Source: Citricoccus sp. K5 (GTDB lineage Bacteria > Actinomycetota > Actinomycetes > Actinomycetales > Micrococcaceae). From it: a DNA stretch of 64,000 bases. Within the stretch, counting starts at the first letter, position 1. Each line of letters begins with the position of its first letter. Below the pieces are notes generated by a model. That model was not told where the DNA came from. It was given only the letters and a program-made list of their open reading frames with translations, and did not search any database. The DNA is taken from contig NZ_LR732817.1 of NCBI RefSeq assembly GCF_902506195.1, positions 3,501,407 to 3,565,406 on the forward strand, given 5' to 3'. Of the stretch, positions 1-49,243 are shown piece after piece. Position numbers and translations under genes: made by a program.

Positions 1-77
1 TGCCGCCTGTTCCTCAAAGAGTCTCGGACGCCCCGCCACTCGCATCAGCTCCCGCCTGCTTTATCAACCAGGACAGT

Positions 78-121
78 TTGACACGGCGGGCCGCCACGGT
101 GAAACTGGATCAATCGATCCA
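78..121 (+). promoter_or_regulatory. Putative promoter with overlapping palindrome
   Basis: A perfect -35 hexamer TTGACA lies at 78-83; 17 bases downstream is GAAACT (101-106), a weak -10. The near-perfect palindrome TGGATCAATCGATCCA (106-121, 14 of 16 positions symmetric) sits directly after the -10, where a repressor would block transcription of the oxidoreductase starting at 165. Its core resembles the CAATCGATTG element at 6710-6719 in front of the asparaginase operon, so the same LacI-type protein could bind both; this is inference. Confidence 0.35.
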
Positions 122-164
122 CTATTGCGAACCGGGTGGATCTGGTCGAACCGAGAGGACTGCC

Positions 165-1304
165 ATGACTGCGACGCCTGCGAGCGAAGCCACGCTGAAC
201 GCGCCCTATGGACTGCGGGGGCTTGACCTGCCCAACCGGGCGGTCCTGGCCCCGATGACGCGGATCAGCGCGCACGGTGACGGCCGGGCGACGGAGAGGA
301 TGCGGGACTACTACCGGTCCTTCGCCGAGGGCGGTTTCGGCCTGCTCGTGACGGAGGGGATCTACCCGGACACCGCCTACAGCCAGGGGTACCTGGACCA
401 GCCGGGTCTGGCGACGCCCGAGCACGTGGAGTCCTGGGTCCCCGTCACGGCGGCCGTCCACGAGCACGGCGCCTCGATCATCGCGCAGCTGATGCACGCC
501 GGCCCCCAGGGCCAGGGCAATCCCCATGTCTCGGGATTGCGCTCCGCCTCGGCGGTCCGTGCCCGCGGGCAGCAGGCCGGCATGTACCGGGGCAGCGGAC
601 CGTACGAGCAGCCGGAGGCGCTGAGTGTGGAGGAGATCGGCGAGGTGATCTCATCCTTCGCCGCAGCCGCCGTGCGGGCCCGAGATGCCGGCTTCGACGG
701 TGTGGAGATCCACGGTGCCAACGGCTACCTCGTGGACGCGTTCCTGACGGACTACCTCAACGAGCGGACGGACGGCTATGGCGGTTCGCCGATGGCGCGG
801 ACCCGCGTGGCGCGGGAGATCATCGAGGCCGTCCGCGCCGCCGTCGGGAACGACTTCGTGGTGGGGATCCGCATCTCGCAGGGCAAGGTCAGCGACGCCA
901 CCCACCGGTGGTCTGGGGGAGTGGCGGAGGCCGAGACGGTCTTCGGTGCCCTCGCCGGTGCCCCCGTGGATTACCTCCACACCACCGAGTGGAAGGCCAA
1001 TGCGCCCGCGTTCCCGGACGAGGACGCCCGCTCACTGGCCCAACTGGCCCGCGAGTTCGCCCCGGGGCTGACCGTCATCGCCAACGGTCACCTGGACACC
1101 GGCGCCGAGGCGGCACAGGGCCTCGTCGAGGGAGGTGCTGACCTCGTCGCGATCGGCAAGGCGGCCCTGGCCCAGCACGATTGGCCGCGGCGAGTGCAGC
1201 AGGGTCGCCAGCTGCTCGACCCCCTGGCGCCGAGCGCCTTCGGGGAACTGGCGACCATCCAGGACTGGGAATTGCGGGTGGCCGAGCCGGTTCCAACGAG
1301 CTGA
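165..1304 (+). CDS. NADH:flavin oxidoreductase / Old Yellow Enzyme family protein
   Basis: A 379-residue FMN-dependent ene-reductase-type TIM barrel. Family marks are LPNRAVLAPMTR near the N terminus (FMN-binding strand 1), the HGANGYLVDAFLTDYLNERT segment in the middle (substrate/FMN site, His-x-Ala-Asn) and a C-terminal GGADLVAIGKAALA phosphate-binding stretch. Such enzymes reduce activated C=C bonds of enones, maleimides or nitro compounds with NAD(P)H. I chose ATG 165 because GAGAGGA precedes it at good spacing; the frame is open upstream to 78 but that part covers the promoter. It converges on the minus-strand operon ending at 1378, with a hairpin between. The substrate is unknown; the neighbouring imidase- and amidase-like genes make a maleimide-type substrate possible. 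Confidence 0.9.
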   Translation: MTATPASEATLNAPYGLRGLDLPNRAVLAPMTRISAHGDGRATERMRDYYRSFAEGGFGLLVTEGIYPDTAYSQGYLDQPGLATPEHVESWVPVTAAVHEHGASIIAQLMHAGPQGQGNPHVSGLRSASAVRARGQQAGMYRGSGPYEQPEALSVEEIGEVISSFAAAAVRARDAGFDGVEIHGANGYLVDAFLTDYLNERTDGYGGSPMARTRVAREIIEAVRAAVGNDFVVGIRISQGKVSDATHRWSGGVAEAETVFGALAGAPVDYLHTTEWKANAPAFPDEDARSLAQLAREFAPGLTVIANGHLDTGAEAAQGLVEGGADLVAIGKAALAQHDWPRRVQQGRQLLDPLAPSAFGELATIQDWELRVAEPVPTS

Positions 1305-1313
1305 TAGACCGCA

Positions 1314-1353
1314 GGCCGGCCGGTGGACGATGTTCATCATCCACCGGCCGGCC
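1314..1353. terminator. Bidirectional hairpin terminator
   Basis: A 14-bp perfect inverted repeat (1314-1327 with 1340-1353, GC-rich) has a second 4-bp pairing (GATG/CATC) inside its loop. It sits between the convergent oxidoreductase (stop 1304) and the small minus-strand gene (stop 1378), so it can serve both. There is no T-run. Confidence 0.65.
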
Positions 1354-1377
1354 AGCGGCGGTTGGGGAAAAACGGGC

Positions 1378-1677
1378 TCACCTGGCCCGGGTGAGCAGGC
1401 GCCGGACAAGGGCCCGCGGCGTCTCGGCCCCGGTCCAGTCCGCGCTGGTGCCCGCCTCCGGCGAGTCCAAGGAATCGAGCAGCTGCTCCACGTCCGCGAA
1501 GACATCCTGGCGCCCGGTCCGGCGCCGCAGGGTCCAGCCGTCACCCATCAGGGTGAGCGAACAGCCAGGAGCCAGCCCGCGGCGCAACTCTGCCAGCGCC
1601 TGGCGCTTGCGCCCGAGCCGGTTGAGGGTAGCCGTGGTGTGAGACACCGTGGTGCCACCGGGGCATGCTCCGCACAT
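1378..1677 (-). CDS. Small MCGACPG-type hypothetical protein
   Basis: A 99-residue protein of unknown function. It begins MCGACPGG, has a third Cys in APGCSL around residue 38, and is otherwise basic with a GDGWTLRR segment. GGGGGT lies 5 bases before the ATG, and the start is only 9 bp after the stop of the upstream SDR gene, so it is probably the last gene of the operon. The CxxCP start could bind metal or form a disulfide; this is not established. Overlapping frames in this GC-rich stretch are also open, so confidence is moderate. Confidence 0.55.
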   Translation of the reverse strand: MCGACPGGTTVSHTTATLNRLGRKRQALAELRRGLAPGCSLTLMGDGWTLRRRTGRQDVFADVEQLLDSLDSPEAGTSADWTGAETPRALVRRLLTRAR

Positions 1678-1686
1678 GGTGACCCC

Positions 1687-2436
1687 CTACGGCATCACGT
1701 CGCCGCTGTTGGGCCCGAGCGTCTGGCCCACGTAGATGTCCCCGCCCGGAGAGGACGCCAGCAGCAGGGCCGTCGGCGCGATCTCCTCGGCCGTGCCGAA
1801 GCGGCCCAGCGGCAGTTCGGCACGCTTGGCCGCCTTCCATTCCTCGGTCACGCCGTTCAGCAGGGGCGTGTCGATGGGGCCGGGGGCGATGGCGTTCACC
1901 AGGATCCCCTCGGGGGCCAGCTCCAGGGCCATCGCCTTGGTCATGCCAATCACGCCGGCCTTCGCCGCCACATAGTGCACCAGCCCGGTGCCGCCCTTGA
2001 TGCCCAGCTGGGATGCGATGTTGATGATGCGGCCGCCCCCTCGTGACTGCAGGTGCGGCAGGGCCCACCGGCCGGCGAGGAACACTCCCTTGAGGTCGAT
2101 GTCCACCGTCCGGTCGAAGTCCTGCTCCGTCATCTCGGCCATCGGCTTCTCGTCCAGGATGCCGGCGGCGGTCACCAGGATGTCGATCCCGCCCAGCTGC
2201 TCGGCCACGGAGTCCATGGCCTGCCGGACCGAATCCGAGCTGGTCACGTCGACTTCCGCGAACAGCGCCGTGGCGCCGGTCTCGGTCAGATGCCCGACGA
2301 CGGCCGCGCCGGCCGCCGCGTCACGGTCCAGCACGGCGATGGCCGCGCCGTTCTCTGCGTACAGCCCGGCGATGGCCGCCCCGATCCCGCTGGCGCCGCC
2401 GGTGATGACGGCGACCTTGTCCTTCAGCGCTTCCAT
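1687..2436 (-). CDS. SDR family oxidoreductase
   Basis: A 249-residue classical short-chain dehydrogenase/reductase, cytoplasmic and NAD(P)-dependent. Visible motifs are TGGASGIG (dinucleotide loop, residues ~13-20), TAAG in place of NNAG, a catalytic Ser in NIASQLG, and YVAAK with catalytic Tyr/Lys. Asp in VLDRDA after strand 2 suggests NAD(H) preference. AGAAGGAG lies 8 bases before ATG. It follows another SDR and an MFS carrier in one minus-strand operon, so it probably oxidises or reduces a hydroxy/keto intermediate of the imported compound. The substrate cannot be named. Confidence 0.9.
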   Translation of the reverse strand: MEALKDKVAVITGGASGIGAAIAGLYAENGAAIAVLDRDAAAGAAVVGHLTETGATALFAEVDVTSSDSVRQAMDSVAEQLGGIDILVTAAGILDEKPMAEMTEQDFDRTVDIDLKGVFLAGRWALPHLQSRGGGRIINIASQLGIKGGTGLVHYVAAKAGVIGMTKAMALELAPEGILVNAIAPGPIDTPLLNGVTEEWKAAKRAELPLGRFGTAEEIAPTALLLASSPGGDIYVGQTLGPNSGDVMP

Positions 2437-2486
2437 GCGCCTGCTCCTTCTCTCATGTGGTGACTGTCGATTCTGAAGTGGGTGGC

Positions 2487-3272
2487 TCAGCTGGGCCAGC
2501 GGATGGTCAGTCCGCCGTCCACGATGAGTTCTTGACCGGTGACGTAGGCGGAATCATCACTGGTGAGGAAGCGGATGGTGCGGGCGGTCTCGTCCACGGT
2601 GCCCACGCGGCCGGCGGGGATGATCTTCCCGGCGGCCTTCAGCCCCTCATCACCCAGGGAGTTCTTCTCATCCTCGGACTGCGGGCTGCGGATCAGCCCC
2701 GGGATCACCGCGTTCACGCGGATCCCGCGCGGGGCCAGTTCCACGGCCAAGGAGCGGCACAGGCCCAGCACGCCGGACTTCGCCGCGGCATAGTGCGCGT
2801 GCTCCTCCCAGCCGTACACCCCTCCGGCGATCGATGACGTCGCGACCATCGCGCCGCCGTCGGTCATTGTGGCGGCGGCCGAGCGGAAGATGCGCATCAC
2901 ACCGGTGAGGTCCACGTCCAGCATGTCCTCCCACGCCTGGTCCGTCATCTCGCCCAGCGGGTTGCGCCGGAGGATGCCGGCAGCGGCCACAGCGATGTCC
3001 AACCGGCCGAACTCGGCCATGGCGGCCTCGGCCATCGCGTCACAGTCCTCGGTCCTACGGACGTCGGCGGCCACGGCGATGCACCGTCCGCCGGCGGCCT
3101 CCACGGCCCGCACCGTCTCCTGGGAGTCGTGCGGATCACCGGGGAAATAGTTGACCACGCTGTGCGCACCGGCCCGGGCGTAGGCCACCGCCAATGCCTG
3201 GCCGATCCCGCTGGCGCCGCCGGAGATCAGCGCGACCTTGCCGGCCAGTCCGTCGTCTCGTTGAGTGCTCAT
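2487..3272 (-). CDS. SDR family oxidoreductase
   Basis: A 261-residue classical SDR. SGGASGIG forms the cofactor loop, AAAG replaces NNAG, TSSIAGG carries the catalytic Ser and YAAAK the catalytic Tyr/Lys pair. NYFPGDPHDS after strand 2 departs from the usual Asp, so the cofactor is uncertain. GAGGTGG precedes the ATG. The start overlaps the stop of the MFS gene (TGATG arrangement), so translation is coupled. Two different SDRs side by side suggest two successive redox steps or two stereoisomers in the same pathway. Confidence 0.9.
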   Translation of the reverse strand: MSTQRDDGLAGKVALISGGASGIGQALAVAYARAGAHSVVNYFPGDPHDSQETVRAVEAAGGRCIAVAADVRRTEDCDAMAEAAMAEFGRLDIAVAAAGILRRNPLGEMTDQAWEDMLDVDLTGVMRIFRSAAATMTDGGAMVATSSIAGGVYGWEEHAHYAAAKSGVLGLCRSLAVELAPRGIRVNAVIPGLIRSPQSEDEKNSLGDEGLKAAGKIIPAGRVGTVDETARTIRFLTSDDSAYVTGQELIVDGGLTIRWPS

Positions 3273-4660
3273 CAGAGGACCACCTCGTCCTTCTCCGCGC
3301 CGGGGTGGTTGCCATGTCCCAGCATGTCAGCCGGGGTGTCAGGGGCACCGGGGCCCTCGATCTTTCGGGTGCCCATCATGCACAGCCCAGCCAGGGCCAA
3401 CCCGAGGGTCCCGGAGAGGATGGCGGCGGCGGTCATGGACAGCCCGGCGAAGAGCAGCGCGCTGAGCAGGCCGGAGCCCACGATCCCGCCCACCGGCGCC
3501 ATCACGTGGGCCACGTTGGTGCCCATGCCGCGGGCATGCGCCGGGAAGGACTCGCCCATGTAGTACAGCAGTGCTGCGAAGGGCCCGGTCAGGAAGAACA
3601 GGGTCAGGCCGTACATGGCGATGATGAACCAGGTTGCCCCCGGGATGAGCAGCATGCCCAGACTGGAGACGGCACCGGCCAACCAGCCGAGGATCACGGT
3701 GCGCTGACGGCCGATCCGATCCCCGAGCCAGCCGTGGAACAGGTAGCCGACGAAGCCCACGGCATTGGCGCCGATGAGGATGACCAGGGCGTTCTCGAAG
3801 GAGACGCCCTTGGCCTCCACCAGCACCGTGGTGCCCAGCACGGAGAAGACCTGGATGCCGATCCAGCTGAACAGCCAGGCCAGGGAGAGCAGGATGGTGT
3901 GCCGGCGCAGCGCCGGGGAGAAGACCTCTTTGAGGCCACCCTGGGTCTCGCTGTCCATCTCGAGGCGGTGCTGGTCGATCAGGACCTGGGCGCCGGCGTC
4001 GTCCCCCACGGACTGGCGACGGCGCGCCTCACGGATGGCGGCGAAGGTGGGCGATTCGGGAAGGCGGGTGGCCACCAGGGCCACCGCGATGGCCAGCACG
4101 CCGGCGATCACGAAGGACCAGCGCCACCCGATGACCGGCAGCAGCAGGGCGGACATGCCGGCGGCCACCAGCGCGCCGATCGGGTAGCCGGCCTGCACCA
4201 CGGAATAGAAGAAGCCCTTGTTCTTGACGTCCTTGTAGATCTCGGAGAGGTAGACCGCGTTGACGACCTCCTCGGAGAGGGACAGTCCGGTGAAGGACCG
4301 CACCAGGATGATCGAGACGGCGCCGATCGCCATGCCGGTGAAGCCGGCGGCCAGGCCGCCGCCGATCATGAGGATCACCAGGGCGTTGCGCCGGCCCAGG
4401 CGGTCGATGATCGGCCCGACGATCAGCGAGACGATGAACACGCCCACGTGGGCCAGCGTGTTGATCATCGTGGACTGGGCGGTGCTCCACCCGAAGTCCT
4501 CGGCGATCACCGGCAGCAGCGTGCCGAAGAGGGTGAAGTCGTAGACGGAGATGACCCAGGCCAGGAAGCAGACGATCGAGACCTTGCGGATCATGCCCGG
4601 CGTGACGGGGACGTCCCAGGGGGCTATGGGCCCGGTCGAGGCGGTGCGAGGAGAGGACAT
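3272..4660 (-). CDS. MFS transporter, sugar/organic acid type
   Basis: A 462-residue integral membrane carrier with about 12 hydrophobic segments. The loop 2-3 signature DRLGRRNALV and the matching second-half DRIGRQRT show the major facilitator fold; the spacing is that of sialate/aromatic-acid-type proton symporters. A soluble insert (SIVxx...HRLEMDSETQGGLKEVF) links the two halves. It lies inside the catabolic operon between the deacetylase-like hydrolase and the SDRs, so it very likely imports the substrate handled by these enzymes. The ribosome binding site is weak. Confidence 0.88.
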   Translation of the reverse strand: MSSPRTASTGPIAPWDVPVTPGMIRKVSIVCFLAWVISVYDFTLFGTLLPVIAEDFGWSTAQSTMINTLAHVGVFIVSLIVGPIIDRLGRRNALVILMIGGGLAAGFTGMAIGAVSIILVRSFTGLSLSEEVVNAVYLSEIYKDVKNKGFFYSVVQAGYPIGALVAAGMSALLLPVIGWRWSFVIAGVLAIAVALVATRLPESPTFAAIREARRRQSVGDDAGAQVLIDQHRLEMDSETQGGLKEVFSPALRRHTILLSLAWLFSWIGIQVFSVLGTTVLVEAKGVSFENALVILIGANAVGFVGYLFHGWLGDRIGRQRTVILGWLAGAVSSLGMLLIPGATWFIIAMYGLTLFFLTGPFAALLYYMGESFPAHARGMGTNVAHVMAPVGGIVGSGLLSALLFAGLSMTAAAILSGTLGLALAGLCMMGTRKIEGPGAPDTPADMLGHGNHPGAEKDEVVL

Positions 4661-4741
4661 GGTGGACTTTCGTGTGAGGGGACCGCCCGGCCCGGTGGGC
4701 CGGGCGATCCGTCCAAAGGGGGATGGTGGCCGGTGAGCCGA

Positions 4742-5629
4742 TCAGGCCTGCGGGCGGGGGTGGCGCTGGGCGAAGTCCCGGGCGACGTCCTCCATGAAGG
4801 CGAACTCGACGCCGTCGTGGCCCTGGATGTGGTCGAACAGCCGCTCGAGCATGAGCAGGTTCTGCGGACGGCCGGAGACGTCCGGGTGGATGGTGATGGG
4901 GAAGACGGCGTAGTCCATCTCGCGGTAGACCCAGTCGAACTGGTCCTTCCAGAGCTGCTCCACGTCCCGCGGGGAGACGAAGCCGTGGCTGTTGGGGCTG
5001 GACTTGATGAACATCATCGGGGGCAGGTCGTCCAGGTACCAGGACGCCGGGATCTCGATGAGGTCGGTCTCCTCGCCGCGCACCAGCGGCTTCATCCAGT
5101 CATGGGCCGAGTTGGCGGAGTAGTCGATCTTGGTCCAGGTGTCCCCCACGCGCACGTAGTACGGGGTGTGGTCGTCATGCATCAGGGAGTGGTCGTAGAG
5201 GAAGCCACGCTCGAGCAGGATCTCGTTGGTGACCTTGGAGAACTCCCACCACGGGGCCACGTAGCCCACCGGCTTCTTGCCGGAGCGCCGCTCGATCAGA
5301 TCGGTGCAATAGTCCAGGATCTCGGTCTCCTGGGTGCGAGTCATGGCAATCGGGTTCTCGTGCGAGTAGCCGTGCACGCCGATCTCGTGGCCGGCGGCGA
5401 CGACCTCGTCGAACTGCTGCGGGAAGGTCTCCACAGAGTGGCCCGGCCAGAACCAGGTCACGGGGATCTCCCGGCGCTGGGCCAGCTGCAGCAGGCGCGG
5501 CACGCCCACCTCGCCGGCGAACAGCCCACGGGAGATGTCACCGGGGGAGTCCTCACCACCGTAGGAGCCGAGCCAGCCGCCCACGGCGTCGACGTCGATT
5601 CCCACGGACACGTAGATCTTCTTGGTCAT
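4742..5629 (-). CDS. Polysaccharide deacetylase-fold hydrolase (PuuE / cyclic imidase type)
   Basis: A 295-residue NodB-fold protein without signal peptide, so it acts in the cytoplasm, unlike secreted sugar deacetylases. The metal-binding pieces are [10 protein letters not shown] at the N terminus (Asp) and HGYSHENP (His-x3-His). This length and these motifs are typical of the PuuE allantoinase / HpPgdA / cyclic-imide hydrolase branch, which opens cyclic ureides or imides. AAAGGAA lies 6 bases before ATG, 18 bp after the asparaginase-like gene. Coupling of an imide-opening enzyme with an amidohydrolase supports an imide to half-amide to diacid route (inference). A role in glycan deacetylation is the alternative. 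Confidence 0.85.
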
Positions 5630-5647
5630 GTTCGTTCCTTTCAGTGG

Positions 5648-6661
5648 TCAGCGCAGTTCGCTGAACAGGGTGGTGAATTCGGTGATGGAGGGATTCCCGG
5701 ACAGCAGCGCCGCCGCGAGGATCCGTGCTTGGAAGGGGTTCAGGTGTCCGGCGCTGACGGCGCCGGCCGCGATCAGGTCCACGCCGCCGCCGTTGCCGTA
5801 GATCGGCACCATGGGACCGCCCGGCACGCGGGTGCTCAGCACCACGGGGATCCCTGAGGAGACCAGATCCGCCACGGCGTCGGCATGCCCCGGCCCCGCG
5901 TTCCCGACGCCGGTGCCCGCCAGGACCGCGCCCGCAGCGCCGCTCTGCGCTGCGTATCGCAGCGCGTCAGGTGAGGAGCCTGGGTAGGCCGTGATGACAT
6001 CCACCCGGGTCGTGCCGAACTCGGGGCTGGGAAGGGGGAGGGTACGGGGACGGGCTGGCCGGGCGACGAGGTCGAGCTCGTCATTGCGGAACAGGCCCAC
6101 GGTGGCGCCGCCGTCGAAGGGCTGGCTGGCGGTGGTGTGTGCCTTTCGGGCGCCCCGGGCAGTCTGGACCCGGCCGTCGAACGCGATCAGGGAGCCCATG
6201 CCGCGGAATCGCGGATCAGCTGCCACCGTCAAGGCCTGGCGGAGGTTGCGGGGGCCGTCTGAGTCCGGCTGGTCGGCCGCACGCTGGGCGCCGGTGAACA
6301 CCACCGTGGTGTCCGTGCCGTTCACCAGGTCCACCAGGAACGCAGTCTCCTCGAGGGTGTCGGTGCCATGGGTGACGATCACGCCGTCCACCGCCGCCTC
6401 GGCAGCGCGGGCGAGCGCGGCCGCGGTGATCTCCAGGATCTCCGGCAGGCCCAGGCGGTAGCTGCCCAGGGTCATGACGTCCTCGGTGGTGATCTGGAGG
6501 GCCCCATTGGCCGCGGCCGCCGGAGACGAGGTGACGAGGTCGTCGATCGTGTCCGAGGCGACCGAGCCGTCAACGTGGTCCGTGCCCTCCCCACCCGCTC
6601 CCGTCTGCCCGGAGCGGGACGCGATGGTCCCGCCGGTGCCGATGATGTGGACTCTGGCCAA
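5648..6661 (-). CDS. Asparaginase family amidohydrolase
   Basis: About 337 residues from the TTG at 6661, which has GAGG upstream; the frame is open further up to 6787 but that part covers the operators. Type I/II asparaginase marks are present: IIGTGGTIAS (first catalytic Thr), GVIVTHGTDTLEETA (second Thr, Asp, Lys region) and VVFTGAQR. There is no signal peptide, so it is cytoplasmic. It is the first gene of the operon 6661-1378. In the family it hydrolyses Asn/Gln or related half-amides to acid and ammonia; here a succinamate-like half-amide is possible from context. Divergent LacI-type control is likely. Confidence 0.88.
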   Translation of the reverse strand: MARVHIIGTGGTIASRSGQTGAGGEGTDHVDGSVASDTIDDLVTSSPAAAANGALQITTEDVMTLGSYRLGLPEILEITAAALARAAEAAVDGVIVTHGTDTLEETAFLVDLVNGTDTTVVFTGAQRAADQPDSDGPRNLRQALTVAADPRFRGMGSLIAFDGRVQTARGARKAHTTASQPFDGGATVGLFRNDELDLVARPARPRTLPLPSPEFGTTRVDVITAYPGSSPDALRYAAQSGAAGAVLAGTGVGNAGPGHADAVADLVSSGIPVVLSTRVPGGPMVPIYGNGGGVDLIAAGAVSAGHLNPFQARILAAALLSGNPSITEFTTLFSELR

Positions 6662-6709
6662 TCCGTACCGCCTCAGATGCAAGTCGGGAAATGATCGGAA
6701 GCGTTGCCC

Positions 6710-6734
6710 CAATCGATTGCCACAAACGTTTGTG
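6710..6734. promoter_or_regulatory. Tandem CG-centred palindromes, likely LacI-family operators
   Basis: Two adjacent perfect palindromes, CAATCGATTG (6710-6719) and CACAAACGTTTGTG (6721-6734), both with the central CG step typical of LacI/GalR operators. They lie about 50-75 bp upstream of the asparaginase TTG and 140 bp upstream of the divergent LacI-type gene, so one protein could control both directions. Confidence 0.65.
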
Positions 6735-6874
6735 TAAAGTGATGTGATGCATATTAGAGTAGGAATCGACGTGATGCAAGACTCCATGTTCGGCCCGTAG
6801 ACTGACGGCGCTCCCTCCCGCCCTGCGGGGCGAGTCAGGCGTCCGTCAGCACCCGACCACCATCGAAGGCCACC

Positions 6875-7876
6875 GTGAGCAAGAGATCATCCGTCACCCT
6901 GAAGGGGCTGGCCCAGGAGCTCGGCCTCAGTCCGTCCACGGTGTCGCGCGTGCTGAATGATGCGGCGGGCGAGGAATCGCGCTGGGCCTCCCCGGAAACC
7001 AGCCGGCGCATCCTGGCCCTGGCCCACGAGGTCGGCTACGCCAAGAACCCCTACGCCGCTTCCCTGCGCACGGCCCGGTCGCGGTTGATCGGGGTGGTGG
7101 TGCCGCGGTTGCAGGACTACGTGCTCGCCACCATCTACGAGGGCATCGACGAGGCCGCGGCCGAACGCGGCTACGTGGCGGTGGTGGCGAACTCCCTGGA
7201 CAATCCGGCGTCCCATGCGGCCCGCGTCCGGAAGCTGATGGACCGGCGCATCGACGGCCTGATCCTCGGGGACACCCCGTTCGACGGCTCCACCCTGACC
7301 GCGATCGAACAGGAGGACGTCCCCTTCGTGCTGGTCAACCGCCGGTCTCCGGGATACCCCTCCGTAACCTGTAACGACTACCTGGGTGGGCAGCTCGCCG
7401 GGGAGCATCTGGCCGGACTGGGAATGGAGAAGATCTTCCTACTGGCCGGTAAGGACCGCATGTCCACCTCGATCGACCGCACGGCCGGATTCACCGAACG
7501 GCTGGCCGAGCACGGCATCCACGTGCCCGCCGAGCACATCGCCACCGGCGGATTCGACGCCGAGGCCGGCGAGGAGGCCACCCGGCACCTGCTGGACACC
7601 GTCGGTGTGCCGGACGCCCTGTTCGCCGTCAACGACTTCGCGGCCATCGGCGCCCTGGGCGTCCTGGCAGAGCGGGGGCTGTCCGTCCCTGAGGACGTCA
7701 GGATCGTCGGGTATAACGACACCCCCTTGGCTAGCGGGGTGGGGTTGACCACGGTGCGCTCGCCGATGCACCAGATCGGGCGCCAGGGGCTGGAACTGCT
7801 CTTGGAGCGGATGGACGGCAAGGATGTGGAGAGCCGGCAGCTTGATCCAGAGCTGGTGGTCCGGGCCTCGGCGTAG
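6875..7876 (+). CDS. LacI family transcriptional regulator
   Basis: A 333-residue repressor-type protein. The N-terminal HTH reads TLKGLAQELGLSPSTVSRVL (residues ~8-27), followed by a hinge helix with NPYAASLRT and a periplasmic-binding-protein-like ligand domain (IGVVVPRL, FVLVNR, AVNDFAAIGALG, VGYNDTPLA). The GTG start has AAGG in front. It is divergent from the asparaginase operon and is probably its ligand-responsive repressor; the two palindromes between them are the candidate operators. The ligand is unknown. Confidence 0.92.
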   Translation: MSKRSSVTLKGLAQELGLSPSTVSRVLNDAAGEESRWASPETSRRILALAHEVGYAKNPYAASLRTARSRLIGVVVPRLQDYVLATIYEGIDEAAAERGYVAVVANSLDNPASHAARVRKLMDRRIDGLILGDTPFDGSTLTAIEQEDVPFVLVNRRSPGYPSVTCNDYLGGQLAGEHLAGLGMEKIFLLAGKDRMSTSIDRTAGFTERLAEHGIHVPAEHIATGGFDAEAGEEATRHLLDTVGVPDALFAVNDFAAIGALGVLAERGLSVPEDVRIVGYNDTPLASGVGLTTVRSPMHQIGRQGLELLLERMDGKDVESRQLDPELVVRASA

Positions 7877-7879
7877 GGG

Positions 7880-9475
7880 TCACCCCACCCGGAACCTCTC
7901 GAACACCGTGTACATGTAGTCCGTCCCGGTCTTCAGTGCCTCCACGAAGATCCGTTCGTCGTCGCCATGCATCCCGATCAGTTGCTCGTTGGACAGCACG
8001 TAGGGGTAGACGCCATATCCGGGGATGCCCTGGGCGCGCCAGGGGGCCAGGGAGGTTCCGGCCTCGAACAGGGCCGGAGCGAAGGCAGCATCCGGGTAGG
8101 TCTCCTCAGCCGCTCCGGACAGCGCGTGGAACAGATCGGTGTCGATGTCCGCCGGGGGAGCACCCCACGTCTGGTCCAACTCGTTGAGGTAGTCCTCCTC
8201 GCCCGTCCCCTCCGGGGCGGCGATGCTGACCTCCACGTCCCGCCGGGCCAACAGGGCTCGCACCTGTTTCAGGAATTCCCGGGGTTTCTGCCCTCCGGGA
8301 ACCGCGCGGCAGTTCAGCCGGGCCGTGGCACTGGAGGGGATCACGTTCTCCTTGTACCCGGCCTCCTGGATCACGAAGGCATGCGTGGTCCGCAGCAGGG
8401 CGCGGTGCAGGTAGGGGTAGTCGGAGCGGGAGACCACGAGCTTCTCGGCTCGTTCCCGCATCTTGGCGGACCGTGCCGAGAGCAGCATCCGGATGGCCTG
8501 GGCGAAACGTCGGTCATCGGTGGATGCGGCCAGGGCCTTGAAGTACTCGCGGGTCACATCGGTCAGGTGGACGGGTGCCTCCCAGTCGCCCAGGTCGGCC
8601 AGCGCCCGGGACAGCGTGACCATGGCCGCGTCCGGCATCGGCTTGGACGAATGTGTGGCGGTGCCGTCCGCGGTGATGTCCAGGTTGAAGTAGACCTTGT
8701 CCTGGCGGGTGGCCGTGATGAGCATCGGGGTGGTCGCGTCTCCCTGGGCCAGGAACCAGCCGCCCTCGGTCAGGACCGAACCGGCGTTGATCTTGTCCCA
8801 GTGGTTCTCGGCCAGCCACCGGGAGCCGAAGGATCCGGCCTCCTCATCGCAGTCCGTGAGGACGATGATGTCCCGATCGAATCGGGCTCCTTCCTGGAGG
8901 TGGCGCAGCAGGGCGCTGATGCTCGCGGCGTTCGCGCCCTTCATGTCCAGGGCGCCACGGCCGTACACCTCTCCGTCCCTCACCTCGCCGGAGAAGGGGT
9001 CCGCTGACCAGTTCTCCAGCTCCACGGGCACCACGTCCGAGTGTCCGAGCAGCAGCAGGGGCTCCGCGGCGCCGGTGCCGGCGATCCGCGCGATCAGGTG
9101 CACGTTGTCCGGTTGGGGCGTCTCGATGATCTCCGCATCCACGCCCGCCCGGTCCCAGACCGCTTTGAGCATCTCGGCATGCGGCCGGGTCTTGCCGCCC
9201 TGCCCGGAGTTCTGGGTGTCGAACGAGAGCATGCGTTGCAGCAGGTTCAGCGGATCTCTGTCCTCGGCCGGAATGGTCACGGCGGCGTTGGCGCGGGAGC
9301 TGGAGGTCAGCCCCGTGAGTGCTCCGGTGCCGATGGCCGTCGCCCCGAAAGCGGCGGCGCCCACCCCCAAGAACGTACGACGCCGGATGGCCGGCTTGGG
9401 CGCGACGGTCGCCGTTGCGGTCGAGTCACCGCCGGAGGTGGGAGTCGGGTCGGAGGATGCGGGTGATGGGCTCAT
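7880..9475 (-). CDS. Tat-exported M20 family metallopeptidase
   Basis: A 531-residue zinc peptidase. The N terminus carries RRRTFLGVGAAAFGATAIG, a twin-arginine signal with a hydrophobic stretch, ending near ANA. M20 marks follow: LLLGHSDVVPVE (metal His and Asp), GRGALDMKG (bridging Asp), DCDEEAGS (catalytic and metal Glu) and a dimerisation domain with HSSKPMPDAA. GAGGAGA precedes ATG. Members cleave dipeptides or N-acyl amino acids, so extracellular amide hydrolysis feeding the neighbouring amidohydrolase operon is plausible. It ends 3 bp from the stop of the LacI-type gene, convergently. Confidence 0.88.
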   Translation of the reverse strand: MSPSPASSDPTPTSGGDSTATATVAPKPAIRRRTFLGVGAAAFGATAIGTGALTGLTSSSRANAAVTIPAEDRDPLNLLQRMLSFDTQNSGQGGKTRPHAEMLKAVWDRAGVDAEIIETPQPDNVHLIARIAGTGAAEPLLLLGHSDVVPVELENWSADPFSGEVRDGEVYGRGALDMKGANAASISALLRHLQEGARFDRDIIVLTDCDEEAGSFGSRWLAENHWDKINAGSVLTEGGWFLAQGDATTPMLITATRQDKVYFNLDITADGTATHSSKPMPDAAMVTLSRALADLGDWEAPVHLTDVTREYFKALAASTDDRRFAQAIRMLLSARSAKMRERAEKLVVSRSDYPYLHRALLRTTHAFVIQEAGYKENVIPSSATARLNCRAVPGGQKPREFLKQVRALLARRDVEVSIAAPEGTGEEDYLNELDQTWGAPPADIDTDLFHALSGAAEETYPDAAFAPALFEAGTSLAPWRAQGIPGYGVYPYVLSNEQLIGMHGDDERIFVEALKTGTDYMYTVFERFRVG

Positions 9476-43581: not shown

Positions 43582-43671
43582 GGAGGTCGAATCCGCACCG
43601 TCTACCCGCGAGTGCCCTCTCTGTCAACCTCGGTGTGAGCCACCACTGGGGTGGCGCCGAGGGAGGCAGTG

Positions 43672-43746
43672 ATGGTGGGTTTCACGGCAGTTGAAAGGCG
43701 TGGCTTCGTGTTGGAGTACCTGGATCTACCGCATGGGTCGAGTGGG
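43672..43746 (+). pseudogene. Transposase N-terminal remnant (IS3 OrfA-like)
   Basis: ATG 43672, preceded by GAGGGAGG, opens [20 protein letters not shown] and HGSSG before the reading meets the reversed end of the P-type ATPase. The ERxxFVxEYxxLPxGxxG pattern resembles the first helix region of actinobacterial IS3-type OrfA proteins. No inverted repeats or second ORF remain. The insertion point coincides with the 3' truncation of the ATPase. Confidence 0.35.
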
Positions 43747-44917
43747 CTGATTGCGGGTCAGGGTGCCGGTCTTGTCCACGGCGAGGTGGCGGACCCCGCC
43801 GAGGCGTTCGAAGGCCGCCCCGGACTTGATGACGACCCCGAACCGGCTGGCCGCGCCGATCGCCGAGACCACCGTGACCGGCACGGCGATGGCCAGGGCG
43901 CAGGGCGAGGCGGCCACCAGCACCACCAGGGCACGGGTGATCCACAGTTCCGGGTCCCCGAACAGGGACCCCAGGGCCGCGACGAGCACGGCCAGGATCA
44001 GCACCCCCGGCACCAGGGGCTTCGCGATCCGATCGGCCAGCCGGGCCCGTTGGCCTTTCTCGGCCTGGGCCTGTTCGACCAGGTGCACGATGGTGGTCAG
44101 GGAGTTGTCGGTGCCGGCGGCGGTGGCCTGAATCTCCAGGGCCCCGGAGGTGTTGATCGACCCGGCCGAGACCGCATCCCCGGGGCCAACCTCGACCGGG
44201 ATGGACTCCCCGGTAATCGCGGAGGTGTCCAGGGAACTGCGCCCGGTGCGCACGGTCCCGTCGGTGGCGACCCGTTCCCCGGGCCGGACCACGAGCACCT
44301 GCCCAACCCGCAGGTCCTTGGCCTCGACGTCGATCGTGGCCGCGCCCTGGCGGATGGTGGCGGTCTCGGGCACGAGGCTCAGCAGGGCGCGCAGCCCGGC
44401 CCGGGCCCGGTCCATGGCCTTGTCCTCCAGGGCCTCGGCGATGGAGTACAAAAACGCCAGGGCGGCGGCCTCTTCGATGTAGCCCAGGATCACCGCGCCG
44501 ATGGCGCTGATCGTCATCAGCAGCCCGATGCCCAGCCGGCCGCGGGTGAACAGCCCGCGCAGTGCACCGGGCACGAAGGTCCAGGCGCCGAGCAGCAGCC
44601 CGACCCAGAACACCACCGTGGCCGCGACGCCGGCCCCGGACCACTCCAGGACCAGCCCGGTCAGGAAGGCCACCCCGGAGAGCACCGGGAGCAGGATGGC
44701 CGCATCTCGCCACCACGGCCGGTGGCCCGACCCAGAACACCACCGTGGCCGCGACGCCGGCCCCGGACCACTCCAGGACCAGCCCGGTCAGGAAGGCCAC
44801 CCCGGAGAGCACCGGGAGCAGGATGGCCGCATCTCGCCACCACGGCCGGTGGCCCTCGTGCTCCTCCGGTGCCCCGGAAGTGGGGGACGGGGCCTCGCAG
44901 CCGCAGGCGGCGCTCAC
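43726..44917 (-). pseudogene. P1B-type heavy metal ATPase, disrupted and 3'-truncated
   Basis: Starts GTG 44917, overlapping the cmtR stop (GTGA). The Cys-bearing head [20 protein letters not shown] leads into membrane helices. The frame is broken by an exact 127-bp tandem duplication (44598-44724, 44725-44851), then continues: actuator loop [26 protein letters not shown] in the transport helix (Ser-Pro-Cys, P1B-4-like rather than Cys-Pro-Cys) and the phosphorylation site [12 protein letters not shown], after which the sequence ends in PMR at 43726. The nucleotide-binding domain and last helices are missing, so it cannot pump. If the duplication is an assembly artefact, only the 3' truncation is real. 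Confidence 0.8.
44598..44851. repeat. Exact 127-bp tandem repeat
   Basis: 44598-44724 and 44725-44851 are identical 127-bp blocks starting GCCCGACCC and ending CCGGTG. The same block recurs at 46289-46415 with different flanks on both sides. 127 is not a multiple of 3, so the duplication breaks the ATPase frame. 127 is also a standard largest k-mer of short-read assemblers. Confidence 0.9.
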
Positions 44918-45276
44918 GAGGCCACCTGCACCGTGTCGCAGCACCCGGGCACCGAGCAGCCCGGGTCCATGCACGGGGCGGAGGCATCCACGGCCAGGGT
45001 CACCTCGACCAGGGCTGTCAGCGCGCGGGTCAGGTGTGCATCGGCGATCGCGTACCGGGTGCGGCGCCCCTCGGGCGCGACGGCCACGATCCCGCAGTCC
45101 CGCAGGCAGGCCAGGTGGTTCGACACGTTCGACCGGCTCAGCTCCAGATCCCGGGCCAGCTCGGCCGGGTACCCGGGCCCCTGAAGCAGGGAGAGCAGGA
45201 TCCGGGACCGGGTGGGGTCGGCCATCGCCCGGCCCAGCCGGTGCATCACGTCCAACCGTGTGGAAATAGTCAGCAT
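44914..45276 (-). CDS. cmtR: CmtR-type ArsR/SmtB metal sensor (copy 1)
   Basis: A 120-residue repressor. Cys57 and Cys61 (HLACLRDCG, in the recognition helix) and Cys102 (PCMDPG) match the numbering of the Cd/Pb sites of mycobacterial CmtR; an extra CSVPGCC cluster follows. The winged helix includes [20 protein letters not shown]. It precedes and overlaps the P1B-ATPase gene, as in the cmtR-cmtA pair, and is divergent from the ccdA genes. Metal binding should release the operator at 45284-45307. Confidence 0.92.
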
Positions 45277-45283
45277 GCGCTGA

Positions 45284-45307
45284 ACTATACACCCCGTGCT
45301 GTAGCGT
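45284..45307. promoter_or_regulatory. Candidate CmtR operator, copy 1
   Basis: ACTATACA (45284-45291), 8-base spacer, TGTAGCGT (45300-45307): an imperfect inverted repeat 8 bp before the cmtR ATG. The same arrangement is at 46845-46868 in copy 2 although the spacer differs, which supports function. Confidence 0.6.
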
Positions 45308-45367
45308 ATTTGCGGGTTTCACCCGGACTTCGGTGGCCCCGACCCGTTGACCTAGTGAGGACCCTCC

Positions 45368-45433
45368 GTGACTGCCCGTTGCCGCCCCACCTGTCCGCGC
45401 CGCCCCGTCCGGGGCCGGGGAGGACGGGCATGA
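45368..45433 (+). CDS. 21-residue upstream ORF coupled to ccdA (copy 1)
   Basis: GTG 45368 with GAGG 7 bases upstream encodes [18 protein letters not shown] plus GRA and stops at TGA 45431-45433, overlapping the ccdA ATG (ATGA). A matching tiny ORF of 23 codons sits at the same place in copy 2 although the DNA between has diverged. It is Arg/Pro-rich with two Cys. A leader for translational coupling or ribosome stalling is possible. Confidence 0.5.
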
Positions 45434-46179
45434 ACTTGGGCGGGTTCTTCGCTGAAATGGTCCAGTCTGGGGCACTGCTGGTGGCGATGCCGCTGGCCGC
45501 GGTCGCCGGCCTGGTGTCCTTCCTCTCCCCGTGCATCCTGCCGCTGGTGCCCGGATACCTGGGCTACGTCTCCGGGCTGGCCGATCCGCGCCGGGAAGAC
45601 AACCGGCGCCGGGTGATGACCGGGGTGGGACTGTTCATCCTCGGATTCGCCGCGGTCTTCACCGCCTACGGGGCCGCCTTCGGAGTGATCGGTGGCTGGC
45701 TGCTGCAGTGGCAGGACCTGCTGATCCGGATCCTGGGGGTATTCGTCGTGCTCATGGGCCTGGTGTTGGTCGGCTGGCTGCCCTTTCTGCAGGGCACCAA
45801 GAAGATGTCCTTCCAGCCGAAGACCGGCATCGCCGGCGCCCCGCTGCTCGGAGTGGTCTTCGGCCTCGGCTGGACCCCCTGCATGGGCCCCACCCTGAGC
45901 GCCGTGCTGGCATTGAGCACCACCACCGGAGACCCCTGGCGCGGGGCCCTGCTGGGTTTCCTCTACTGCCTGGGCCTGGGCATCCCCTTCGTCCTGGTCG
46001 CGATGGGCCTGGACTGGGTCACCCGCACCCTGGGCTTCGTCCGCCGCCACATCCGGGCCTTCAACATCATCGGCGGGATCCTGCTGGTGCTCGTCGGGGT
46101 CCTGATGGTCACCGGGATCTGGACCCTGTGGATCTACCAGCTGCAGAACCTCGCCGGCACCTTCACCACCCCCGTCTAA
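45430..46179 (+). CDS. ccdA: Cytochrome c biogenesis protein CcdA/DsbD-type (copy 1)
   Basis: A 249-residue six-helix membrane protein that carries reducing equivalents from thioredoxin across the membrane. The two reactive cysteines are in [20 protein letters not shown] (helix 1) and [17 protein letters not shown] (helix 4). GGAGG is 7-8 bases before ATG 45430. The following DsbA-like gene is only a 22-codon stub in this copy. Almost all residues are identical to copy 2 except at the extreme N terminus. Confidence 0.92.
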
Positions 46180-46220
46180 ACCCCTGCCCCTGACTCCCGA
46201 CCCCACGGATTGGACCGACC

Positions 46221-46288
46221 ATGACTCCCACCGACCCCACCCCGACCAAGGCCGACTCCGCCCCGTCCCGGCAGCGCCGGGCCAAGAT
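46221..46288 (+). pseudogene. 5' fragment of the DsbA-like gene
   Basis: ATG 46221 starts MTPTDPTPTKADSAPSRQRR and AK, nearly identical to the first 22 codons of the intact gene at 47789, and breaks at 46288 exactly where the 127-bp ATPase block begins in reverse orientation. No membrane anchor or CxxC domain remains. Confidence 0.85.
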
Positions 46289-46415
46289 GCCCGACCCAGA
46301 ACACCACCGTGGCCGCGACGCCGGCCCCGGACCACTCCAGGACCAGCCCGGTCAGGAAGGCCACCCCGGAGAGCACCGGGAGCAGGATGGCCGCATCTCG
46401 CCACCACGGCCGGTG
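46289..46415. repeat. Third copy of the exact 127-bp block
   Basis: Identical to 44725-44851. It is preceded by the DsbA stub and followed by diverged DNA (CGCCTCGG instead of GCCCTCGTG). The identity starts and stops precisely at 127 bp on both comparisons. Confidence 0.9.
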
Positions 46416-46478
46416 CGCCTCGGCCTCCTCGGATGCGCCCCCAGTGGTCTCCGCGGCGCTGCAGCATGCATCACTCAC
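46289..46478 (-). pseudogene. 5' fragment of a second P1B-type ATPase gene
   Basis: GTG 46478 overlaps the stop of cmtR copy 2, as in copy 1. The 63-codon fragment reads VSDACCSAAETTGGASEEAE, then the shared [17 protein letters not shown] segment and helix [10 protein letters not shown], and is cut at 46289 by the junction with the DsbA stub. The Cys-rich head differs from copy 1, so the two ATPases were already diverged paralogues. Confidence 0.8.
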
Positions 46479-46837
46479 GAGGCCGCCTGCGCTGCGTCGC
46501 AGCACCCGGGCACCGAGCAGCCCGGGTCCATGCACGGGGCGGAGGCATCCACGGCCAGGGTCACCTCGACTAGGGCGGTCAGCGCGCGGGTCAGGTGTGC
46601 ATCGGCGATCGCGTACCGGGTGCGGCGCCCCTCGGGCGCGACGGCCACGATCCCGCAGTCCCGCAGGCAGGTCAGGTGGTTGGACACGTTCGACCGACTC
46701 AACCCCAGATCCCGGGCCAACTCCGCCGGATATCCCGGGCACTCCAGCAGGGACAGTAGAATCCGGGACCGAGTGGGATCGGCCATCGCCCGCCCCAGCC
46801 GGTGCATCACATCCAGTCGCGTGGCAATAGTCAGCAT
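46475..46837 (-). CDS. cmtR: CmtR-type ArsR/SmtB metal sensor (copy 2)
   Basis: A 120-residue paralogue of the sensor at 44914, with the same Cys57, Cys61 and Cys102 plus CSVPGCC tail. It differs at about ten positions, among them CPG for GPG, DLGLSRS for DLELSRS, HLTCLRDCG and the last residues DAAQAAS. Its own ATPase partner is only a fragment here, so this regulator may now act mainly on the divergent ccdA-dsbA-VKOR operon. Confidence 0.92.
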   Translation of the reverse strand: MLTIATRLDVMHRLGRAMADPTRSRILLSLLECPGYPAELARDLGLSRSNVSNHLTCLRDCGIVAVAPEGRRTRYAIADAHLTRALTALVEVTLAVDASAPCMDPGCSVPGCCDAAQAAS

Positions 46838-46844
46838 GCGCTGA

Positions 46845-46868
46845 ACTATACAGCACCTGATGTAGTGT
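46845..46868. promoter_or_regulatory. Candidate CmtR operator, copy 2
   Basis: ACTATACA (46845-46852), 8-base spacer, TGTAGTGT (46861-46868), located 8 bp before cmtR copy 2 in the same position as 45284-45307. The half-sites match 6 of 8 positions in symmetry. Confidence 0.6.
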
Positions 46869-46924
46869 CGTGCGGGGCCCCGGCCGATGCGGAGCCCCGC
46901 ACGCCGTAGCAGAGAGGACCGTAC

Positions 46925-46996
46925 GTGACCGCCTGTCACCGACGCCCCCCACTTCATCCTGGTCTCCGGAGGACGCCCCTCGGGAGGGCAGCATGA
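46925..46996 (+). CDS. 23-residue upstream ORF coupled to ccdA (copy 2)
   Basis: GTG 46925, with GAGGACC upstream, encodes [20 protein letters not shown] plus RAA; its TGA (46994-46996) overlaps the ccdA ATG at 46993. It begins MTA like copy 1 and also has an early Cys, while the rest differs. Same position, start type and overlap suggest selection for the arrangement rather than the exact peptide. Confidence 0.5.
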
Positions 46997-47742
46997 GCAT
47001 CGGCGGATTCTTTGCCGAAACGGTCCAGTCCGGGGCCCTGCTGGTCGCCATGCCACTGGCCGCGGTGGCCGGCCTGGTCTCCTTCCTCTCCCCCTGCATT
47101 CTTCCCCTGGTCCCCGGCTACCTCGGCTACGTCTCCGGGTTAGCCGACCCGCGCCGGGAAGACAACCGGCGCCGGGTGATGACCGGGGTGGGACTGTTTA
47201 TCCTCGGTTTCGCCGCGGTCTTCACCGCCTACGGGGCCGCCTTCGGAGTGATCGGTGGTTGGCTGCTGCAGTGGCAGGACCTGCTGATCCGGATCCTGGG
47301 GGTATTCGTCGTTCTCATGGGCCTGGTGTTGGTCGGCTGGCTGCCCTTTCTGCAGGGCACCAAGAAGATGTCCTTCCAGCCGAAGACCGGCATCGCCGGC
47401 GCTCCGCTGCTCGGAGTGGTCTTCGGCCTCGGCTGGACCCCCTGCATGGGCCCCACCCTGAGCGCCGTGCTGGCATTGAGCACCACCACCGGGGACCCCT
47501 GGCGCGGGGCCCTGCTGGGCTTCCTCTACTGCCTCGGGTTGGGCATCCCCTTCGTGCTGGTCGCGATGGGCCTGGACTGGGTCACCCGCACCCTGGGCTT
47601 CGTCCGCCGTCACATCCGGGCCTTCAACATCATCGGCGGAATCCTGCTGGTGCTCGTCGGGGTCCTGATGGTCACCGGGATCTGGACCCTGTGGATCTAC
47701 CAGCTGCAGAACCTCGCCGGCACCTTCACCACCCCCGTCTAA
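46993..47742 (+). CDS. ccdA: Cytochrome c biogenesis protein CcdA/DsbD-type (copy 2)
   Basis: A 249-residue membrane protein, identical to copy 1 except for the first residues ([12 protein letters not shown] versus [12 protein letters not shown]). Reactive Cys in [14 protein letters not shown] and GWTPCMGP. Here the downstream DsbA-like and VKOR genes are intact, so this copy is the functional operon: CcdA brings electrons outward while VKOR removes them, both meeting at the DsbA-like protein. Confidence 0.92.
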
Positions 47743-47788
47743 ACCCCTCCCTACTCTCGAGACCACACCCGACCGGATAGGACCGACC

Positions 47789-48526
47789 ATGACTTCCACC
47801 GACCCCACCCCGACCAAGGCCGACTCCGCCCCGTCCCGGCAGCGCCGGGCCAAGATCGTGGTCTGGGTCCTGCTGGCCCTGGTCATCGTCGGCGGCACCA
47901 TCGGCTATTTCGTGGCCCGCGGCGCCACCACCACCCCACCGCAAGACGCCAGCGCGTCCACCGGTCAGGAATCCGGACAACCGAGCCAAGAGGGCGGGCA
48001 GCTGGTCCGGGAGAACAGCCGGGTGCTCTCCCAGGCGCCGAACGAGAAGGCCGTGCTGGTGGAGTTCCTGGACTTCGAATGTGAGGGCTGCGCCGCGGCC
48101 TATCCCTTTGTCGAGGAGTTACGGGCGGAGTATGCGGACACCGTCACCTTCGTGAACCGTTACTTCCCGCTGCCGGGCCACCCGAACTCGGTCACCGCGG
48201 CCGTGGCTGTGGAGGCCGCTGCCCAGCAGGATGCTTACGAGCCGATGTATCAGCGGATGTTCGAGACCCAGACCGAGTGGAGCCACACCACGGAGGACCG
48301 CAGCGATGTGTTCCGCGGCTATGCCGAGGACCTCGGCCTGGACATGGCTGCCTACGATGCCGCCGTGGCGGATCCGGCGACCCGGGAACGTGTTGAGCTT
48401 GATGTCGCCGACGGCACCGCCTTGGGAGTCTCCGGGACCCCGACGTTCTACCTCGACGGCGAGCAGCTCGCCCCGTCCACCCTGGAAGAGTTCACCGCCG
48501 CCGTTGAAGCCGCTGTCCAGGACTAG
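47789..48526 (+). CDS. DsbA family thioredoxin-fold protein, membrane-anchored
   Basis: A 245-residue protein: cytoplasmic head with QRRAK, one anchor helix (IVVWVLLALVIVGGTIGYFV), a disordered Gln/Ser linker, and an extracytoplasmic thioredoxin fold with active site Cys-Glu-Gly-Cys in DFECEGCAAAYPF and cis-Pro in GVSGTPTFYLDG. It acts as a thiol oxidase or isomerase outside the membrane. It starts 46 bp after ccdA and is followed by VKOR, which would re-oxidise it. A 22-codon stub of the same gene is at 46221. Confidence 0.92.
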   Translation: MTSTDPTPTKADSAPSRQRRAKIVVWVLLALVIVGGTIGYFVARGATTTPPQDASASTGQESGQPSQEGGQLVRENSRVLSQAPNEKAVLVEFLDFECEGCAAAYPFVEELRAEYADTVTFVNRYFPLPGHPNSVTAAVAVEAAAQQDAYEPMYQRMFETQTEWSHTTEDRSDVFRGYAEDLGLDMAAYDAAVADPATRERVELDVADGTALGVSGTPTFYLDGEQLAPSTLEEFTAAVEAAVQD

Positions 48527-48586
48527 GTGGCTTGCCGCCGGCAACGCCTTCTGACCGTGGACCGAGACCAGAAAAAGCCCTCCACC

Positions 48587-49243
48587 ATGACCGAACGCTC
48601 GACCATTTCCACCCATCCCTCGAAGCCATCCCCCTCGCCAGCAGCGATGGCACCCGCCCGGGCCTGGTTCGCCGACCATCGGACCTTCGGGCTGATCCTG
48701 TTGGTCACCGGAGCCGTGGGCTGGATCGCCTCGGCCATCCTCGTGCTCGAGCGCCTGGCCCTGTACGAGAACCCTGGCCACGTCACCAGTTGTGACATCA
48801 ACCCCTGGGTGTCCTGCGGGCGGGTGATGGGCACCTGGCAGTCCGAGCTATTCGGGTTCCCCAACCCGCTGATCGGCATCGTCGCTTTCGCCGTGGTCCT
48901 GGCCACCGCGATGGTGGTGCTCTCCGGGGCCCGACCCGGCCGGTGGTACTGGGCCGGACTGCAGGCCGGGGTCACCCTAGGGATGGCCTTCGTGACCTGG
49001 CTCTGGTTCCAAGCCCTGTACGAGATCTACATCCTGTGCCTGTACTGCATGATCGTCTGGGCGGCCATGATCCCGCTGTTCATCCTGCTCACCGCCCGCA
49101 ACCTCGCCCACGGCGTGATCCCCGCCCCGCCGGCGGTGGCCCGGTTCGCCACCGGCTGGGCCGGGACCCTCATCGCCGTCGTCTACGTCGGCGTCGCCGG
49201 CTCCGTCTTCATCCAGTTCCTCCCCGCCTTCACCGGCCCCTGA
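48587..49243 (+). CDS. Vitamin K epoxide reductase family protein
   Basis: A 218-residue membrane protein with about four to five helices. It carries the loop pair Cys...Cys in HVTSCDINPWVSCG and the quinone-site CLYC in IYILCLYCMIVWA. VKOR passes electrons from DsbA-type proteins to quinone. ATG 48587 is chosen; the frame is open to 48527 without a good site. It is the last gene of the ccdA-dsbA-VKOR operon and resembles the second VKOR at 57338. Confidence 0.92.
   Translation: MTERSTISTHPSKPSPSPAAMAPARAWFADHRTFGLILLVTGAVGWIASAILVLERLALYENPGHVTSCDINPWVSCGRVMGTWQSELFGFPNPLIGIVAFAVVLATAMVVLSGARPGRWYWAGLQAGVTLGMAFVTWLWFQALYEIYILCLYCMIVWAAMIPLFILLTARNLAHGVIPAPPAVARFATGWAGTLIAVVYVGVAGSVFIQFLPAFTGP

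Follow-up and report, generated by a model that had tools for sequence, protein, structure and literature searches.

Three identical 127-bp blocks in a metal module of Citricoccus sp. K5: very probably unmerged assembly overlaps around a collapsed ATPase repeat

Is a 127-bp block that occurs three times among broken genes of a metal module a biological repeat or a trace of sequence assembly? The question arises in a 64-kb stretch of the Citricoccus sp. K5 genome (the window, C1:3501407-3565406; genome G000 has 3,879,757 bases in 9 contigs), where positions 44598-44724, 44725-44851 and 46289-46415 hold one and the same sequence. Exact repeat comparison in the window bore out the three identical copies reported in the preliminary description; no fourth exact copy was present on either strand of the window, and a search of K5's own genome found just these three. 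Identity had also been said to end at 127 bp on both sides; this is so in two of the three pairwise comparisons, whereas the tandem copies match over 131 bp owing to four extra bases on the right. Exact repeats of this length are far beyond chance. Since 127 is not divisible by three, the tandem copy disrupts the frame of the ATPase gene, and a DsbA stub (46221-46288) is fused to a reversed ATPase start, both as described earlier. A further break point, 43742-43868, carries a different 127-bp block with partners outside the window. As we argue below from sequence comparisons, the three blocks are almost certainly overlaps of a short-read assembly that were left unmerged, an assembly error and not a biological repeat.

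We saw that the length of 127 bp is common to unrelated junctions of this one assembly. The K5 comparison covered C1:3501407-3744611 gap-free, C1:1-10000, three short C1 stretches, C2, C4, C8 and 20 kb at each end of C3. It gave 22 pairs of exact repeats of at least 60 bp, 11 of them exactly 127 bp long and two more of 130 and 131 bp; the three short C1 stretches were picked for matching joins, so that the share of 127-bp pairs is no random sample (the 243-kb tail of C1 was not so picked). The 11 pairs represent seven distinct blocks of different sequence, and none of the seven lacks a copy at a join, a contig end or a single N. Three of the four single Ns seen (C1:3641634, 2240244 and 2695406) are directly followed by a 127-bp block; the fourth is situated 95 bp beyond the block copy at C1:1768763-1768889. 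At C1:3690110|3690111 two different 127-bp blocks stand back to back.

Some features of the assembly count against an artefact. A 127-bp block is present at three of the ten contig ends inspected (C1 start, C2 end, C8 end); the other seven have no shared 127-mer within the stretches compared, which are a minor part of the genome. Among these seven, the other end of C8 shares 112 bp, not 127, with C1, and the remaining six have no partner in the compared stretches. Also, the joins at 43741, 44724, 46288 and C1:3690110 have no N, whereas other joins have one. A scan for exact tandem repeats with period 60-200 in 332,637 bp of K5 and 212,656 bp of a sister genome (G007) returned just the reported one; tandem pasting is thus uncommon in the DNA scanned. 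Another 127-bp block was observed three times, at C1:1768763 (95 bp from another N), C1:2240245 (directly after a single N) and C1:3690111, and would mark more such joins in the chromosome part.

Between the break points lies segment A (43742-44724, minus strand), 983 bp from the middle of a gene for a cation P-type ATPase; the segment occurs at full length once in the assembly, with two neighbours on each side. Its left end block (43742-43868) is identical to C2:15931-16057, the final 127 bases of contig C2 (16057 long), and to C1:3689984-3690110. Its right end block is the first reported copy (44598-44724); the second copy (44725-44851) opens segment B and the third (46289-46415) opens segment D, none of these end blocks being assigned a strand. 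The left neighbours are C2 and C1:3689984; the right ones are B at 44725 and D at 46289. Flanked on both sides by 127-bp blocks that recur at the ends of other pieces, A has the anatomy of a two-copy repeat collapsed in a de Bruijn graph with k=127. With the 651-residue ATPase of NZ_CP133843.1 as a reference (rows with identity of 55% or less discarded), A corresponds to residues 24-350, C2 to 309-651 and C1:3689080-3690111 to 308-651; B and D begin with sequence that aligns from residue 1 onward (to residues 79 and 89 in the rows obtained, whose ends overrun the joins). By this tiling the pieces are parts of two whole genes, and the identical 983-bp stretch shared by the two is probably real. 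Similarity to two plasmids suggests that the C1:3690110 side belongs with A and B, and C2 with A and D.

The sister genome supplied a second assembly of the same tract. There the outer limits of A are unchanged, but the four contig ends at them (C10, C16, C13 and C14) each hold exactly 111 bp, which C10 has in common with C16 and C13 with C14. The other ends of C10 and C16 also share 111 bp, and C13 and C14 share 109 bp near theirs (at the contig ends or at most 2 bases away). In the G007 stretches compared we found 14 exact pairs of at least 60 bp, three of exactly 111 bp, all at contig ends; a near-identical match to the middle of A was not found in the G007 assembly. With the limits constant and the overlap changing from 127 to 111 bp, the length depends on the assembly and not on the DNA. 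Such a difference would be expected from different values of k, that of G007 being one that we infer. The overlaps of a k=127 graph proposed in the preliminary description thus gain support from the 127-bp blocks at other joins and contig ends, from the 111 bp of the sister assembly and from complete plasmids where the blocks are in single copy.

The two complete Citricoccus plasmids, NZ_CP039426.1 and NZ_CP133843.1, each have every block once and an intact ATPase gene. One of the two plasmid-bearing strains was sequenced with PacBio (PMC6742787), and its plasmid 2 was described as encoding copper and arsenic resistance proteins (PMC6742787); in this relative, too, single copies of the blocks lie within an intact ATPase gene.

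Four pieces have been pasted together to make up the window. Chromosomal DNA ends at 43741; the collapsed A follows at 43742-44724, one half of module 1 occupies 44725-46288, and module 2 starts at 46289. For the chromosome, three of the three relatives searched give the DNA left of 43741 another neighbour, not the metal module: in G007, contig C7 runs from the left side directly into the counterpart of C1:2695179 and downwards (93% over 4.6 kb; 98% over 1.2 kb); in G001 (one contig) and G003:C1 the left piece and this counterpart are ∼2.0 kb and 0.2 kb apart, with partial matches of 71-94%. The final 127 bp of the left piece (43615-43741, no strand assigned) match exactly the reverse complement of C1:2695407-2695533, directly after a single N. 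The 127-bp blocks at 43615-43741, C1:2695179-2695533 and C1:1-127 probably delimit a repeat that in K5 separates the left piece from its genuine neighbour; G007 has both sides of that position directly adjacent.

At the join 44724|44725, the two query halves match G003:C3 with an overlap of exactly 127 bases; this contig gives match positions equal to those of NZ_CP039426.1. The sequence is in single copy in both complete plasmids; the 37-base tandem junction is present in one of eight genomes of the genus, K5 itself. Across the join 46288|46289, module 1 is unbroken on G007:C16, where positions 6944-8491 equal window 46288-44741 (99.9%) and positions 1-6947 equal C1:3648564-3641635 (99.0%), with a 4-bp overlap of the two matches. 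The continuity of this contig places the missing part of module 1 94 kb away in K5, directly after the N at C1:3641634. Segment B (44725-46288, no strand assigned), with the ATPase start, ArsR1, CcdA1 and the DsbA1 stub, thus continues at C1:3641635 onward. B ends in 61 bp of a 184-bp dsbA repeat; a plain k=127 contig would carry 127, so that ∼66 bp are missing there, which again counts against an artefact.

The genes of the modules (ArsR, CcdA/DsbD membrane domain, DsbA-like and VKOR assignments by Pfam) are arranged as follows. Module 1 has an ArsR-family regulator (44914-45276, minus), a CcdA/DsbD-type membrane protein (45430-46179, plus) and the plus-strand DsbA1 stub, ended by the join at 46288 and complete in G007. 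Module 2 has an ArsR-family regulator (46475-46837, minus), a CcdA/DsbD-type membrane protein (46993-47742, plus), a complete DsbA-like thioredoxin protein (47789-48526, plus) and a VKOR family protein (48527-49243, plus). Exact matching showed a 184-bp stretch of dsbA2 (47796-47979, plus) identical to dsbA1 in G007; its initial 61 bp are found again at 46228-46288, and the piece at C1:3641635 begins with its terminal 127 bp (47853-47979). The dsbA1 gene is complete on G007:C16; in K5, with its remainder after the N at C1:3641634, it is presumably whole too. The modules are ∼89% alike over ∼1.58-1.6 kb in direct orientation: 46 of 73 aligned columns agree for the first 70 bases right of A, 332 of 363 in arsR and 713 of 750 in ccdA (up to 95%). 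The left flanks of A in the K5 genome are ∼85% alike.

Beside the cut dsbA1, C1:3641407-3641634 holds an istB-like piece (named from sequence reading alone) that adjoins the N, and the two sides of the cut have the 4 bp AGAT in common, as a target duplication left by an insertion element might. Both features suggest that a mobile element inserted at 46288; this was set aside as the main cause, as C1:3641635-3641761 coincides exactly with the final 127 bp of the 184-bp stretch repeated in dsbA. An insertion may still have taken place.

How could the present order have been produced? The genome carries a pair of similar metal modules (ATPase, ArsR, CcdA, DsbA, VKOR), probably plasmid-borne, and their ATPase genes would not differ for 983 bp. 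A de Bruijn assembler run with k=127 would have collapsed this stretch into the single piece A with two neighbours per side, the terminal 127-mer of A being retained at the start or the end of each neighbour; these common ends are observed, and the assembler is their presumed origin. Later scaffolding or finishing would then have pasted the chromosome end, A, B (the opening portion of module 1) and D (module 2) in a row with the shared ends unmerged, the A|B join giving the tandem copy and the B|D join giving the third copy beside the DsbA stub. As for the number itself, the Unicycler paper gives 127 as the maximum k in SPAdes and describes the SPAdes process as leaving overlapping sequence at contig ends (PMC5481147); in another paper, k is subtracted per contig during cycle layout (PMC9104695).

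One may ask whether K5 underwent a real rearrangement, in which a 127-bp recombination hot spot gave rise to a tandem copy and to a further one next to a truncated dsbA. The sequence as deposited does show this order, and recombination between two modules that are real paralogues, ∼89% alike over 1.6 kb, is plausible. We consider it very improbable nevertheless. A hot spot leaves unexplained the exact 127 bp of six other blocks of different sequence, the contig ends of C2 and C8, and the 111-bp version at identical limits in G007; the K5 genome retains the rest of module 1, at C1:3641635 and adjoining an N; and the novel tandem junction occurs in no second genome among the eight of the genus. 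The hot spot that the preliminary description had named as a source of the three copies is unsupported. As a second alternative, the entire 1564-bp unit might truly have been duplicated in tandem (44725-46288 and 46289-47856, in direct orientation and 89% alike over ∼1.58 kb), with the block as the start of the repeated unit. This is less probable still and was rejected, since G007 carries the two units on separate contigs with different continuations, the block is 100% alike as against 46 of 73 columns in the adjoining 70 bases, and such a duplication would not yield three block copies.

The DNA right of 43742, up to ∼C1:3690110, is most likely plasmid. Complete plasmids bear the module in two Citricoccus strains. 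K5 matches the relaxase family PF03432 just once, at C1:3635980, and both matches in G003 are on its two plasmids; also, part of C1:3605001-3625000 matches plasmid regions carrying a ParA gene. Much of this DNA recurs in G007, where C10 matches C1:3547711-3604411 (the window from 46305 on) with 99.98% over 56.7 kb and C1:3605798-3637095 with 97.7% over ∼31 kb, and C14 matches C1:3654618-3690094 with 99.94% over 35.5 kb. The chromosomes of K5 and G007 (listed as another species) left of the join are ∼93% alike. The near-identical common DNA would probably reflect a recent plasmid exchange. NZ_BMLQ01000010.1 (Citricoccus zhacaiensis) matches the window's DsbA2 at 100%.

Artefactual as the 127-bp copies appear, they may still mark a real event. 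The 983-bp ATPase tract (approximately residues 24-350 of 651) shows no difference between the modules and has sharp limits, which coincide between two genomes listed under different species names; a few differences within it could be masked by assembly collapse. The modules are ∼85% alike to its left and 89% to its right, and there is the identical 184-bp dsbA stretch as well. One could speculate, and on these comparisons we lean slightly that way, that gene conversion took place between the two modules before near-identical plasmid DNA spread between hosts.

The consequences for users of this genome are practical. The 3.7-Mb sequence joins the chromosome to DNA that is most likely plasmid and splits module 1 in two, so that anyone reading gene order, pseudogenes or 'chromosomal' metal resistance from it would be misled. 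On the other hand, the length of a block at the same limits in two assemblies offers a cheap test, requiring no reads, to tell k-mer overlaps from biological repeats. A literature search for papers describing internal k-length repeats of this kind gave no direct match.

Compared with known systems, the K5 modules resemble those of NZ_CP039426.1 and NZ_CP133843.1 in the gene order ATPase-ArsR-CcdA, followed by a DsbA-like protein (annotated in NZ_CP133843.1 only, not in NZ_CP039426.1) and VKOR, with 82-93% over the aligned pieces; they differ in that the plasmid stretches examined have one module and K5 has two. The blocks themselves resemble the k-mer overlaps of de Bruijn assemblers of the SPAdes class, with k up to 127, in that one exact length is shared at the branches of a collapsed repeat. 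Unlike ordinary overlaps at contig ends, the K5 pieces were pasted without overlap removal inside a 3.7-Mb sequence, and thus the overlap resembles a biological repeat.
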